The notes beneath the pieces are model-generated. The model was not told the DNA's origin, ran no database searches, and was given only the letters and a program-made list of their open reading frames with translations. Of a stretch of DNA of 32,295 nt, positions 1 to 8,765 are shown piece after piece (position 1 is the first letter of the stretch; each line of letters opens with the position of its first letter). The translations under genes and the position numbers were made by a program. Origin of the DNA: Campylobacterales bacterium (lineage in GTDB: Bacteria; Campylobacterota; Campylobacteria; Campylobacterales; QNZT01); the NCBI GenBank assembly GCA_027084135.1, contig JALWLO010000105.1:1-32295 (forward strand). The letters are read 5' to 3'.

Positions 1-651
1 AATTTTATTTAAAAAGAAATCAGTATTCCTTGATGTTCCAAAAAACAAATGGCATCTTTTATCAAGCTCTTTTGCGTATTCTCCTCCTCTTCCATCATTA
101 TTTCTAGGACGCAAAGAACCATAGCCATTTGTAACACCTACAATCAAATACTCTTCACTTGTAAAATCCGCCTCAAGTCTTTCAATCAAAGTATCAACTT
201 TTACCATAGCCTTCTCATAACCAACCGACAACAAATCGGAACTTGTACAATACTTGTTTGTACAAGTTGTGTCATCTGTTGAAAAAAGGGGTAGCCGTGT
301 CAAAAAAGCATTAATTTTGTCAAGCGTAGATTGCCGATTAGCAAAAATAACATGCACTTGAATATGCTCATTTCTACTATTTTTAGAATCAAGTCTAAAT
401 TCAATATTTGGGAAAAAAACTTTATTTGATTCGGAATACTCTGTTTTGTAGCGCCCTATAAATCTAAAATAATTATCTATTGAGAAATAGTCTGTTAAAC
501 CAAATGCTTCTACATCAGAATTATGTATTTGGTCACAAAATTTTTTCCATACATCATGGTCATCAGAATGATATTGGTTATTTAGCTTTGCATCAGGTGT
601 ATGTACATGTAAATCCCATTTTCTCCACTCTGATCCTCTTGTATAATTCAT
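1..651 (-). CDS. PHP-domain/ATPase protein resembling the TrlF family, N-terminal part only, runs off the left edge
   Basis: Absent from the ORF track because it has no stop inside the window. Manual reverse-complement translation from ATG at 651 is open for 217 codons: MNYTRGSEWRKWDLHVHTPDAKLNNQYHSDDHDVWKKFCDQIHNSDVEAFGLTDYFSIDNYFRFIGRYK... The WDLHVHTPD and GLTDYFS motifs are PHP-like. GGAGG Shine-Dalgarno at the correct spacing, 10 nt after the mod stop. Confidence 0.8.
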   Translation of the reverse strand, partial: MNYTRGSEWRKWDLHVHTPDAKLNNQYHSDDHDVWKKFCDQIHNSDVEAFGLTDYFSIDNYFRFIGRYKTEYSESNKVFFPNIEFRLDSKNSRNEHIQVHVIFANRQSTLDKINAFLTRLPLFSTDDTTCTNKYCTSSDLLSVGYEKAMVKVDTLIERLEADFTSEEYLIVGVTNGYGSLRPRNNDGRGGEYAKELDKRCHLFFGTSRNTDFFLNKI

Positions 652-661
652 ATTATCCTCC

Positions 662-2473
662 CTATACACTCTTCACATCTTCGATGCCGTACTGTTTGAG
701 TATCTGTATGGCGTTGGTTTTGACTTCGGCGTTTTTGAAGCCGTTGTCTCTAAATACCACTCTCATAGGCTCGTCGGTTTCGTACTTTTCTGTTAGCTTT
801 GCGATCTCTTCTACGGTATCTAAGGTTATCTGCTCATCTAAGCAGACGGCTAAGGCTCCGGAGCTGATGATAAAGACTTTTTTGCCCGTTAGTACTAACT
901 CCTCTATAGGTTGGGCGAGGTCTAAGCCGTATTTTAGAAGTATCTCATAGAGTAGGTCTTCTTCTGTTCTGTCGGGTTTGATGTTATCGACGGCATCAAG
1001 GAGGCTCTCTTCGAGGTTTTCATGGTCGGGATCCCATGTTTTGATGTTGGAGCTGTCGAGTTTGAAGACTTTGAAACCGATGTCGAGTTCAGAGGATCTA
1101 GAGATATTTTCACCCGCTCTTCGGATGCGTTCTTTACCGATCTCGGCTATCGTTTTGTATCCTGCTTTGTAGGCTTCACTTTTGGGGTCGGTGGGTTCGG
1201 GGAGTTGCACCATGATATAGCGACGATTTCCGCAGTCTTCGGCATTGAGTTGCATGACGGCGTGGGCTGTTGTGGCGGAACCGGAGAAGAAATCGAGGAT
1301 GATGTCGTTCTTGTCAGTGCCTATTTTCAATGCCTCTATAACATAAGGTATTGGTTTTGGTGTGTCAAATAATATTTTTCCAAATAGTTTTTTTATTTCA
1401 TCAGCAGCATTTGCAGCGTTGGAAGTAGTATCCCATATAGTTTCAGGAATTTTTCCTTTATTTTCATTAAGAAAAAGTTTTCTATAAATATTGTCTCCTC
1501 TGATGATTAACCTATTATCTTTATCCATCTTTGATAGATTTTCTTTACTAAACAACCATAATCTTTTTGAAAAATATCGTCCTTCTTTTGTAGTAAAATC
1601 ATACTCCACCCCTCCCTGTGTTCCCCTTGCCCAAACCGCCAACATTCTATAGCTTCCTCTAGGATCATTATCTGGATTTTTATAAGCTTTTTTTGTACTT
1701 TCATCCAATTCAAGATAATTTGTATTAAAAAAAGCTTTATTTTTAGAATATACCAACAAATATTCATGTGATTTGCTAAACCATTTTGCTGAATTATCTC
1801 TTCCTCTTTTTCTACTCCAAATAATACTTGCTACAAAATTCTCCTCCCCAAACACCTCATCGCAGACTTTCCTTAGATTTGCTACTTCGTTATCGTCGAT
1901 AGAGATAAAGATAACACCGTCATCTTTGAGTAGGTTTCTTGCCAATTTGAGGCGGGGGTAGATCATGTTGAGCCAGTTGCTGTGGTATCGTCCGCTTGTG
2001 TCGCTGTTGGTACTAACTCTATTTCCCTCGCTATCGACTTGCTTGGTGAGTTCGAGGTAGTTTTTGATGTTGTCTTTGAAGTTGTCTTTATAGACAAAGT
2101 CTTTGCCGGTATTGTAGGGCGGATCGATGTAGATCATCTTGACTCTTTTGTGGTAGGATTTTTGCAAGAGCTTAAGCACTTCGAGATTGTCACCCTCTAT
2201 GTAGAGATTTTTAGTACTATCCCAATCTTTGGACTCCTCTTTGGCGGGGCGGAGTGTACCTGTCGAGGGTGTTTGGGCGATACGGCGGGATTTGGCTTTG
2301 CCGCTCCAGTTGAAGCTGTACCGCTCTTGGCTCTCATCTACATATTCACCAAGTGTGGCTTTGAGTGCCTCAAAATCTATCTTTCCCTCAGAGAAGATAT
2401 CGGGGAAAAGCGATTTTAGCTTTGCGATATTCTCCGCTACGATGTCCATACTTTTGCCGTCTAATTTTTCCAT
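662..2473 (-). CDS. Site-specific DNA-methyltransferase (adenine-specific), type III Mod-like
   Basis: 603 aa; contains MIYIDPPYNTGKDFVYKDNF (DPPY motif) and DIILDFFSGSATTAHAVMQLN (SAM-binding FxGxG-like motif), typical of beta-class/type III Mod proteins. Confidence 0.9.
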   Translation of the reverse strand: MEKLDGKSMDIVAENIAKLKSLFPDIFSEGKIDFEALKATLGEYVDESQERYSFNWSGKAKSRRIAQTPSTGTLRPAKEESKDWDSTKNLYIEGDNLEVLKLLQKSYHKRVKMIYIDPPYNTGKDFVYKDNFKDNIKNYLELTKQVDSEGNRVSTNSDTSGRYHSNWLNMIYPRLKLARNLLKDDGVIFISIDDNEVANLRKVCDEVFGEENFVASIIWSRKRGRDNSAKWFSKSHEYLLVYSKNKAFFNTNYLELDESTKKAYKNPDNDPRGSYRMLAVWARGTQGGVEYDFTTKEGRYFSKRLWLFSKENLSKMDKDNRLIIRGDNIYRKLFLNENKGKIPETIWDTTSNAANAADEIKKLFGKILFDTPKPIPYVIEALKIGTDKNDIILDFFSGSATTAHAVMQLNAEDCGNRRYIMVQLPEPTDPKSEAYKAGYKTIAEIGKERIRRAGENISRSSELDIGFKVFKLDSSNIKTWDPDHENLEESLLDAVDNIKPDRTEEDLLYEILLKYGLDLAQPIEELVLTGKKVFIISSGALAVCLDEQITLDTVEEIAKLTEKYETDEPMRVVFRDNGFKNAEVKTNAIQILKQYGIEDVKSV

Positions 2474-2579
2474 ATTTTTCCCGCTTGGTAGTCTATTTAG
2501 ACATTATACTTAAAGACTTGTAATATTTTAATATTAAAATAGGCATAATGAAGTATATTTTATTTAAAGAGGAAAAACA

Positions 2580-2738
2580 ATGAACAATTTTGCAAAATTT
2601 TTGATAACGGCGTTACTTATCATTGCGGCGGCGTTTGCCTTTAAGCTTTATAAAAGTGGAGGGTTTAAAGATTTTAAACCTGTACCTACATCTAGTACTA
2701 GTACTGATAGTGAGATACCCACCGGCGGCGCAAACTAG
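2580..2738 (+). CDS. Small single-pass membrane/secreted protein, 52 aa
   Basis: MNNFAKFLITALLIIAAAFAFKLYKSGGFKDFKPVPTSSTSTDSEIPTGGAN*; preceded by AGAGGAAAAACA RBS; hydrophobic N-terminal segment. A truncated second copy lies at 3439-3510. Confidence 0.5.
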   Translation: MNNFAKFLITALLIIAAAFAFKLYKSGGFKDFKPVPTSSTSTDSEIPTGGAN

Positions 2739-2906: not shown

Positions 2907-3185
2907 TTAGGCAACTTTGCTTATCAACGGAAATCTTTCAGGATGTTCAATCATCTCTAAGGATAAATCCACATCTAAATCTTTCCAGTATAGATGATCC
3001 TTACCAAAAGTTTCCACATTTGTGATCTCTTTAATAGTCTTATCTTTAAACCATGGAAAATCTTCAAAAGATAAAAAGTACTCTTTACCATTTGACAATA
3101 TCCAAAATCCATGACTTGATATATTTGTAACTTCAACTTCCAAAATACTCCTCCCATGCTTCGATAAATGTTTCATAGTACTCAT
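2907..3185 (-). CDS. DUF2442 domain-containing protein
   Basis: MSTMKHLSKHGRSILEVEVTNISSHGFWILSNGKEYFLSFEDFPWFKDKTIKEI...HLYWKDLDVDLSLEMIEHPERFPL: DUF2442-type wording; overlaps the DUF4160 gene. Confidence 0.75.
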   Translation of the reverse strand: MSTMKHLSKHGRSILEVEVTNISSHGFWILSNGKEYFLSFEDFPWFKDKTIKEITNVETFGKDHLYWKDLDVDLSLEMIEHPERFPLISKVA

Positions 3186-3369
3186 CTATTATTTTTTCGA
3201 TCTCATTTAACTCTTTTCTGGATAGTTTATAATTTTTTGCCAATTCTACCTGTGGTTTTAACCAAAACTTTGCCTCACCCCTTTGAGACTGGATATGTAT
3301 ATGCTCTCTTAACTCCTCCCTAGAAAAGAAGAAAAAACGATAACCTTTTATCTTTAAAATTGTCGGCAT
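3133..3369 (-). CDS. DUF4160 domain-containing protein
   Basis: MPTILKIKGYRFFFFSREELREHIHIQSQRGEAKFWLKPQVELAKNYKLSRKELNEIEKIIDEYYETFIEAWEEYFG: DUF4160-type; paired with DUF2442. Confidence 0.8.
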   Translation of the reverse strand: MPTILKIKGYRFFFFSREELREHIHIQSQRGEAKFWLKPQVELAKNYKLSRKELNEIEKIIDEYYETFIEAWEEYFGS

Positions 3370-3441: not shown

Positions 3442-3573
3442 GACTTTAAACCAGTACCTACATCTAGTACTAGTACTGATAATAAGACAGCCACCGGCGG
3501 AGCAAACTAGGTTTTGATATCGCCTATTCTCTTTTTGATAGACTCGATTTTTTGATTGAGCCTATCGCTTTTG
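3442..3573. repeat. Imperfect ~132-bp direct duplication, copy 2 (partner 2670-2801)
   Basis: Manual alignment. Copy 2 overlaps the 3' end of the intact 3507-3818 gene and a truncated version of the small ORF (ATG 3439, TAG 3510). Confidence 0.85.
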
Positions 3574-3818
3574 CCCTTTCGGATATCCATCTTTAGGGAG
3601 CTATAGACTCTATTTGAGTACGGTTCTAGTACTTTGTAGCAGCCTTTTACGATCTCTAGTGCCTCATCAACAGTATCGGTTTCGATGATGGTTCCCATAG
3701 CGGTTAATTTATACTCCACTCCGCTCTCATCGATGTATTTGATCACTTTACTGACATACTCACTCACACTCTCTGATTTATCCGTAGGAAACATGCTAAA
3801 CTCAAGTAGTACCGACAA
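3507..3818 (-). CDS. MTH1187-family (UPF0045-like) thiamine-binding protein; TTG start proposed
   Basis: LSVLLEFSMFPTDKSESVSEYVSKVIKYIDESGVEYKLTAMGTIIETDTVDEALEIVKGCYKVLEPYSNRVYSSLKMDIRKGKSDRLNQKIESIKKRIGDIKT*. AAGGAGGA at 3823-3830 lies 5 nt from TTG at 3818. The tracked start at 3944 lies inside a dispersed repeat. Confidence 0.85.
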   Translation of the reverse strand: MSVLLEFSMFPTDKSESVSEYVSKVIKYIDESGVEYKLTAMGTIIETDTVDEALEIVKGCYKVLEPYSNRVYSSLKMDIRKGKSDRLNQKIESIKKRIGDIKT

Positions 3819-3833
3819 GCTATCCTCCTTAAA

Positions 3834-3998
3834 CCCAAATTTTGCATTAGCCGATACATCATCTGCATTAATCATCGGTGGCATGGGCGATTGAAGTAAA
3901 GCCTCGACATAGCCTCCGGCTATGCCTGCGTTTTCCTTCAACACCCTTGCACTCAGAGCATCAACACATCTGATGCACCTTTTAATGCAAAATTTGGG
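3834..3998. mobile_element. MITE-like repeat copy A, 165 bp, TSD TTAAA
   Basis: Termini CCCAAATTTTGCATTA...TAATGCAAAATTTGGG; TTAAA at 3829-3833 and 3999-4003; internal hairpin CATAGCC-TCC-GGCTATG at 3908-3924. Confidence 0.85.
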
Positions 3999-4832
3999 TT
4001 AAAATATCACCGTTTTATTGTTGTAAACAAATATCTTATCTCTCAAAGCTAGATCAACAGCCTTTGCTAGAACAACTTTTTCGACATTTTGTCCCGCTTT
4101 TTGCATATCTTTCCAGCTAAATTCGTGATTTACCGTAACGACATCTTGAGCGATAATCGGTCCCTCATCAAGATCATCAGTCACATAGTGAGCGGTCGCA
4201 CCGATGATCTTTACACCCCTCTCATAAGCCTGTTTATAGGGGTTTGCTCCGATAAATGCGGGTAAAAAAGAGTGGTGGATATTGATGATCTTACCTTTGT
4301 ACCTCTCTACAAATGCGGGTGAGAGTATGCGCATATATTTGGCTAGCACTATCAGATCTCCGCCAAGTTCATCAAGCTTTTGCATAACCCTCTCTTCATG
4401 CTCCTCTCTGGAGATTCCCTGAGCCGATATCGCAAAAAAGGGTACATCAAACTTCTCAACCAAGTCTCTTAAAGTTTCATGGTTTGCTATGACGCCGAGT
4501 ATATTTGCTTCAAGCTCACCGCTATAGTACCTGATAAGCAGATCTCCGAGACAGTGCGGCTCTTTGGTAGCCATGAGTACGATATCTTTTTTATGTCTTT
4601 TTTTGAGCTCTACTTCCGCCTCTTTGGGCAAAGCGCTTTGTATATCTGCTTTTAGTCTCTCGATATCCACTTCACCGCTCAGTATCGCTCTAAAAAAGAA
4701 GCGTTTATGCTCCTCATCCACAAACTCTCTATTTTTGTCGATATTTAGACCATACTTGTAGATCTCTTTTGCAAGTTCATATATGAGTCCCGCCCTATCG
4801 GGTGAGCTAACTTTTAGTACATATCTATTCAA
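3999..4832 (-). CDS. purU: Formyltetrahydrofolate deformylase
   Basis: N-terminal ACT domain (YVLKVSSPDRAGLIYELAKEIY) plus formyltransferase-fold motif (IINIHHSFLPAFIGANPYKQAYERGVKIIGATAHYVTDDLDEGPIIAQD). Confidence 0.95.
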   Translation of the reverse strand: MNRYVLKVSSPDRAGLIYELAKEIYKYGLNIDKNREFVDEEHKRFFFRAILSGEVDIERLKADIQSALPKEAEVELKKRHKKDIVLMATKEPHCLGDLLIRYYSGELEANILGVIANHETLRDLVEKFDVPFFAISAQGISREEHEERVMQKLDELGGDLIVLAKYMRILSPAFVERYKGKIINIHHSFLPAFIGANPYKQAYERGVKIIGATAHYVTDDLDEGPIIAQDVVTVNHEFSWKDMQKAGQNVEKVVLAKAVDLALRDKIFVYNNKTVIF

Positions 4833-8259: not shown

Positions 8260-8514
8260 TTAGTAGTGATAACGACATGATACTACAATAATACTCCTCT
8301 CAAAGATCTCATAAACCAGACGATGCTCATGATTGATGCGTCTTGACCAATAACCGGCTAACTGGTATTTGAGTGGTTCAGGCTTGCCCAAACCTCCAAA
8401 AGGTTCCCTTTTGATCTCTTTTAGAAGTAAATTTATCTTTTTGAGAATTTTTCTATCATGTTCTTGCCAATAGAGATAATCCTCCCAAGCTTCCGGTGTA
8501 AAAACAAGCTTCAT
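8260..8514 (-). CDS. yoeB: Txe/YoeB family toxin
   Basis: MKLVFTPEAWEDYLYWQEHDRKILKKINLLLKEIKREPFGGLGKPEPLKYQLAGYWSRRINHEHRLVYE...CRYHY: hallmark YoeB sequence. Confidence 0.93.
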   Translation of the reverse strand: MKLVFTPEAWEDYLYWQEHDRKILKKINLLLKEIKREPFGGLGKPEPLKYQLAGYWSRRINHEHRLVYEIFERSIIVVSCRYHY

Positions 8515-8765
8515 TCTTCTATAAGATTATGTTCAGATACTCTGCCTGCTTTTGCATTCGCTATCGATTTTAACAGACGCTCTCTGTTCTTTTCGGACCT
8601 GAGCAGATACTCTGTTTCATTGAGCGCATTATATTCATCAAGTGAGATGATTACCACATTTTCAGAGTTTTTTCTTTTTACGATGACGGTTTCAGCGTTG
8701 TGGTAAACATCATCAAAGATCGATTTTAGATTATTCCTTGCTTCCGTAAAATTGACTACTTGCAT
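8511..8765 (-). CDS. yefM: Type II antitoxin, Phd/YefM family
   Basis: MQVVNFTEARNNLKSIFDDVYHNAETVIVKRKNSENVVIISLDEYNALNETEYLL; overlaps the toxin start. Confidence 0.93.
   Translation of the reverse strand: MQVVNFTEARNNLKSIFDDVYHNAETVIVKRKNSENVVIISLDEYNALNETEYLLRSEKNRERLLKSIANAKAGRVSEHNLIEE

Follow-up and report, generated by a model that had tools for sequence, protein, structure and literature searches.

The window, by which we mean the whole 32,295-nucleotide stretch of DNA analyzed (G000:C105:1-32295), carries at its left end two genes on the reverse strand: an intact type III DNA methyltransferase gene, mod (662-2473; 603 amino acids), and behind it the 5' part of a trlF gene (1..651), comprising the PHP domain only. 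Mod matches the PADLOC MTase_III profile PDLC03634 over its full length in a profile search (764 bits, E 4e-230, profile positions 2-621 of 621), as a preliminary description of this DNA had proposed in calling it type III-like; its Pfam match is N6_N4_Mtase, its motifs stand in beta-class order (DPPY ahead of FSGSA), and a genome search detected no type III Mod other than the window copy. A possible sigma-70-like promoter (TTAAAA-17 nt-TATAAT; 2503..2531, reverse strand) lies 30 nt ahead of mod, a consensus match only, from a scan that returned 13 such matches where 9.5 are expected by chance. The spacer between mod and trlF (652..661, reverse strand; GTATAGGGAGGATAATATG) is 10 nt long and contains a Shine-Dalgarno GGAGG 5 nt before the trlF ATG. 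Both the 10-nt spacing with its strong ribosome binding site and the co-transcription of the two genes had been put forward earlier, and we judge them right. We rejected the idea of a foreign origin obvious from base composition (G+C is 39% at the locus versus 41% elsewhere, which is not distinctive).

Three other features of the window lie upstream of mod. A frame of 52 residues (2580-2738, forward strand; MNNFAKFLITALLIIAAAFAFKLYKSGG...) is divergent from mod and is conserved near purU in a relative, G042, at 58% identity. A 132-nt direct repeat with 90% identical copies (2670-2801 and 3442-3573) duplicates the 3' end of a thiamine-binding-protein gene (3507-3944) together with its downstream flank, and a DUF4160/DUF2442 gene pair (2907-3369) sits between the copies, as if inserted with site duplication. 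At 8260-8765 on the reverse strand lies a toxin-antitoxin pair of the YefM/YoeB type (Pfam YoeB_toxin and PhdYeFM_antitox).

The trlF frame starts with an ATG at position 651 on the reverse strand, begins MNYTRGSEWRKWDLHVHTPDA, and stays open for 217 codons to base 1 of the window. It had been described as an uncalled frame running to the edge; the frame is real, but base 1 is also the end of the contig, so the gene is truncated there and not merely uncalled. The fragment matches the NCBIfam family NF045780 (TrlF_fam_ATP) at 2e-34 over profile positions 1-216 of 944, carries the GSEWRKWDLHxHTP signature of the N-terminal PHP domain of that family, and shows 55-63% identity to the N-termini of TrlF proteins of Chlorobiota, Nitrospirota and Bacteroidota. 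Its PHP residues D13, H15, H17, E84 and H100 are invariant in an alignment with TrlF relatives, and its predicted fold is that of a PHP domain, with RNase AM and the PHP domain of DNA polymerase III alpha as the sole PDB matches at E <= 0.001. A sequence search of the PDB with the PHP part alone returned no match, Pfam gave no family at E <= 1, NCBIfam gave none other than TrlF, and no PADLOC profile, including that for Ppl, matched the fragment. The PHP/TrlF identity suggested earlier is therefore borne out by profile, modeled fold and conserved residues. A housekeeping PHP enzyme, named earlier as an outcome that would refute the proposal, was considered and rejected, because no such family (DNA polymerase III alpha, RNase AM or histidinol phosphatase) matches and the likeness to RNase AM and polymerase III is one of fold only. 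The assembly contains only these 217 of about 900 TrlF residues: a search with a full-length relative and with the profile found no C-terminal piece elsewhere in the genome, and a match at C86:40716 proved to be an unrelated 802-residue ATPase-like frame. The junction of mod with trlF recurs independently (for example, at locus L083 from Gracilibacteria, where a Mod C-terminus 74% identical to ours is followed by a different TrlF and then by a frame that resembles DUF2130 neighbors by eye), indicating that the junction in the window is no assembly chimera.

Full-length TrlF relatives are about 900-1000 residues long, and those from the same order pass the NF045780 whole-protein score of 350 bits. 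In an alignment of 18 full-length relatives (numbered according to that of locus L014), the PHP residues D20, H22, H24, E92, H108, D244 and H246 are invariant, and the ABC-ATPase motifs are kept (Walker A GRSTGKS, Walker B IDQPEDxLDN, and THN). The model of the L014 protein is confident (pLDDT 84), combines PHP with an SMC/Rad50 fold, and matches SMC, Rad50, Wadjet JetC, PARIS AriA and Lamassu ATPases. By family, the window TrlF would thus join a metal-dependent PHP nuclease to an ABC ATPase of the Rad50/SMC type, the ATPase half being predicted from these relatives. The best PADLOC defense profile for the relatives is in every case Ppl (PDLC02208), the single-gene anti-phage PHP-ATPase of Escherichia coli, which shares the PHP plus ATPase architecture; the profile similarity is weak (65-105 bits) with its best stretch C-terminal, Ppl is described as a stand-alone gene, and the activity of TrlF is a predicted one. 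Two distant TrlF relatives lie on viral contigs.

The only Res that we detected in the genome opens contig C86 (G000:C86:3-2624). It scores 1024 bits against the REase_III profile PDLC03647, lacks its first approximately 102-111 residues, which are cut by the contig start, and reads away from that start, in agreement with the order C105 (reversed), gap, C86. We took the best Mod relatives from 399 genomes of the same order and compared their neighborhoods: the Mods most like the window Mod precede the Res proteins closest to that of C86 (79% in G337, 75% in G163, and about 60% in others). Over 31 mod-res pairs, similarity to our Mod and similarity to the C86 Res rise together (Spearman 0.90), and because the two track each other in this way the C86 Res is most likely cognate to the window Mod. 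The likely layout is therefore mod-trlF-(unknown)-res with an assembly gap inside it, the join of C105 to C86 being inferred. Synteny in six relatives did not yield this join (there the flanking genes are on different contigs or at the ends of contigs); in G042 the housekeeping genes that flank the C105 and C86 ends are on different contigs, away from contig ends, so that synteny gives no help. A search for res further downstream, which had been suggested at the outset, thus led to this one gene, with relatives congruent with Mod and a probable linkage. A genome search for an AlbA_2 gene of the TrlG type found none. Operons of the full form mod-trlF-(X)-res are present in Leuconostoc, with no gene at X (L030, where the mod frame is open only in part), and in Bacteroidota, with RhuM (L053) or a TrlG-like gene (L055 and L060) in that place.

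We considered the neighbors of trlF in 100 loci, for which the counts are descriptive, because sampling is uneven across bacteria. The commonest single neighbor cluster is a type III-like methyltransferase (14 loci, in 11 of them at position -1), so that the pairing in the window, for which neighborhood conservation had been proposed as a check, is a recurrent one. Type I hsd genes, counted together, adjoin trlF in 20 loci, SbcCD-like pairs in 10, and TrlG-like genes in seven (for example, L011, L055, L060 and L132). About half of the loci have no detected restriction-modification (R-M) neighbor. The neighbors of trlF are overwhelmingly of R-M, SbcCD and defense type. On the TrlF tree, the distribution of type III-associated copies calls for 10 or more separate gains or losses on branches with support, indicating repeated recruitment and not co-evolution with one R-M lineage; the closest tree neighbors of the window TrlF are mostly not type III-associated. 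Two arrangements seen in these neighborhoods are worth recording. The trlF gene directly follows an SbcD-SbcC-like (Mre11/Rad50-like) pair in ten loci (L074, L086, L130, L131, L133, L134, L136, L137, L140 and L141), an arrangement for which we found no published description. DUF2130 or DUF2130-like genes recur beside trlF and in mod-res intervals (L124, L126, L138, L139, L142, L083, L196 and L200), which suggests that DUF2130 is a recurrent defense companion with a putative role.

In the same order, the interval between mod and res holds one to four genes in 18 of 26 pairs, every one of them on the strand of the operon, and it is filled in 10 of the 11 pairs whose Mod is at least 50% identical to that of the window, the exception being L224, in which mod and res overlap by 4 nt. 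Over all 31 pairs, 40 of 41 intervening frames run in the direction of the operon, most of them set only a few bases apart, and the remaining frame (93 residues) is probably spurious. The contents are diverse: a YhcG/DUF1016 nuclease (L192), a PifA-like KAP NTPase (L193), a Pycsar cyclase accompanied by its transmembrane effector (L194), Gabija GajA together with a UvrD-type helicase, DUF2130 and RhuM (L196), a PrrC-like AAA_13 protein with DUF2130 (L200), an AAA_21 protein with a PIN protein (L202), an AbiD-like protein (L204), AAA with DUF4276 (L209), TrlG-like AlbA_2/HATPase proteins (L210 and L211), DUF6119 with RhuM (L213), a PDC-M04 DUF3800 protein (L216), and RhuM (L222 and L230). Two further loci break off before res is reached; in these, mod is followed by an Old-like ATPase and an Mrr-nSTAND3 protein (L197) or by a PDC-S06 ATPase (L198). 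Much of this cargo matches known or candidate defense families by profile (Gabija 709 bits, Pycsar cyclase 330, PifA 293, AbiD 93, Old 196, PrrC-like PDC-S06 608 and 888, PDC-S02 409, RhuM PDC-S05 481, and PDC-M04 240 bits); other cargo proteins have no match to any family searched (among them one of 360 residues in L192, one of 506 in L203, and two of 188 and 261 in L207). One genome, G107, has two type III mod genes on two contigs (L197 and L198) with different cargo, an Old-like ATPase plus Mrr-nSTAND3 in one and a PrrC-like AAA_13 in the other, and the last gene of the two contigs is almost identical (MTKTNL.KLSFTKDYETKKI...). The window trlF has the marks of such embedded cargo, lying on the strand of the operon at a place where relatives vary and, on the likely layout, between mod and res.

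Outside the order the picture differs. Among plasmid relatives of Mod (from Providencia, Methanomethylovorans, E. coli, Enterococcus, Vibrio and Acinetobacter), mod and res are adjacent in seven of seven, indicating that filling of the interval is frequent in the order but is no general property of the system. No strain-level exchange of cargo was found in E. coli, where 10 of 5,426 genomes carry an operon closely related to the plasmid type III one, with mod and res adjacent in these 10 apart from one IS30 insertion. On a Vibrio vulnificus plasmid (L237), a gene for a 78-residue 'transcription factor' (4353-4589) precedes a helicase-DUF4391-mod-res operon; its size resembles that of RptR and TrlR, and such regulators may also govern type III systems.

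We consider it probable that the locus is a type III mod-trlF-(unknown)-res operon in which TrlF is an embedded, co-transcribed and separate backup defense. Mod would methylate the recognition site and, with Res, form an ordinary methylation-sensitive endonuclease, whereas TrlF would be a separate defense gene nested in the mod-res interval and expressed with mod. The distant relative Ppl is a PHP single-stranded DNA 3'-5' exonuclease that NTPs keep inactive and that responds to nucleotide depletion and to 3'-OH ends (review, 2026, PMC12904381). By analogy, TrlF is probably a DNA-end nuclease that is inactive in healthy cells and, during infection, would degrade nucleic acid ends as a second layer if restriction fails; we infer its activity, trigger and benefit in this way. 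A literature search found no anti-phage role demonstrated for any TrlF. The defense role given to the PHP gene in the preliminary description is probable, and the association of the gene with type III-like methyltransferases is recurrent. That description had named, as a finding that would refute it, a normal res gene next to mod with the PHP gene as a non-conserved insertion. Half of this applies: a normal Res very likely does stand downstream in the operon, but the PHP gene is cargo of a recurrent kind and no one-off.

TrlF might instead be coupled to the R-M system, such that Res breaks unmethylated phage DNA, TrlF loads on the ends and degrades them, and mod-trlF-res is one machine. The gene habitually stands beside enzymes that make or process ends, which keeps such coupling in consideration, and both the Rad50/SMC type of the ATPase domain and the response of Ppl to 3'-OH ends are in keeping with it. 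That the same interval interchangeably holds unrelated systems (Pycsar, Gabija and AbiD-like cargo) that need no such coupling argues, however, that TrlF works on its own, and neither the scatter of type III-associated copies over the tree, which speaks against long co-evolution with Mod and Res, nor the many loci that lack an R-M neighbor fits a single machine; we regard the coupled model as unlikely. A broader form, in which TrlF is a general end-degrading follow-up nuclease for breaks made by any partner (the type III Res here, HsdR or SbcCD elsewhere), seems to us quite unlikely; if it were true, the mod-res interval would be a docking site for restriction-triggered effectors and not a mere parking place.

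Growth control offers a further reading: TrlF would serve in stress or in the control of growth, and nothing beyond shared mobility and regulation would account for its presence in R-M operons. In Photorhabdus, the trlR-trlF-trlG operon limits growth at high temperature (PMC7554251), and the trlR product has 79 residues, as does RptR, the repressor of R-M/DarTG2 islands (PMC12255303). The mutants selected in Photorhabdus, though, hit trlG and not trlF (PMC7554251), no trlG was detected at the window locus, and the neighbors of trlF are of the R-M and defense types described above, so that we hold this reading to be highly improbable. It is scarcely credible that, in line with the first proposal, Mod and TrlF make up a two-component system whose effector is TrlF in place of Res, reading the methylation state set by Mod, as the position of trlF directly after mod and the lack of a Res within the sequence of some methyltransferase-TrlF loci (for example, L075 and L082) might suggest, given that a cognate Res is present on C86, that the complete close analogs L030, L053, L055 and L060 keep theirs, that TrlF also occurs without any methyltransferase, and that the enzyme of L075 and L082 is a different and more distant one.

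The preferred reading, that of an embedded and separate defense, places the locus among several known systems. Its likeness to the TrlF family and the Photorhabdus TRL operon lies in the N-terminal PHP match and in the PHP plus ABC-ATPase architecture of full-length relatives; the window trlF differs in being truncated, in being nested after a type III mod outside any trlR-trlF-trlG arrangement, and in having no AlbA_2 TrlG in its genome. With type III R-M of the EcoP15I-like Mod/Res kind it shares an intact Mod and a Res of matching kind in the same genome, but it has an extra gene directly after mod, where canonical systems and the plasmid relatives have res adjacent. With defenses embedded in R-M operons it shares a second, co-directional defense gene between modification and restriction genes. 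Published examples include PrrC in EcoprrI, and DarTG2 and an AAA-like ATPase pair between hsdS and hsdR (PMC12255303; PMC12707154), the pair in PMC12255303 being one that may well be TrlF/TrlG; a 'guilt-by-embedding' preprint by Payne et al. is cited there. The published embedded defenses that our reading covered concern type I systems and Hma, whereas the host operon here is type III and the cargo TrlF. Embedding of defenses in R-M operons is thus already known, and TrlF in a type III operon is the new addition. We found no papers on TrlF, or on such turnover of cargo, in type III operons, which is weak evidence because the search took in neither preprints nor most subscription journals, and apart from the Photorhabdus and RptR papers we met no publication that deals specifically with TrlF or with genes lying between mod and res.

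In this order, then, the mod-res interval is usually filled, with cargo that differs between close relatives. Because that cargo often consists of known or candidate defense genes and varies in this way, the interval is a place to look for undescribed defense genes; and given this pattern of cargo, TrlF, whose role has so far been putative, merits assay as an anti-phage nuclease.
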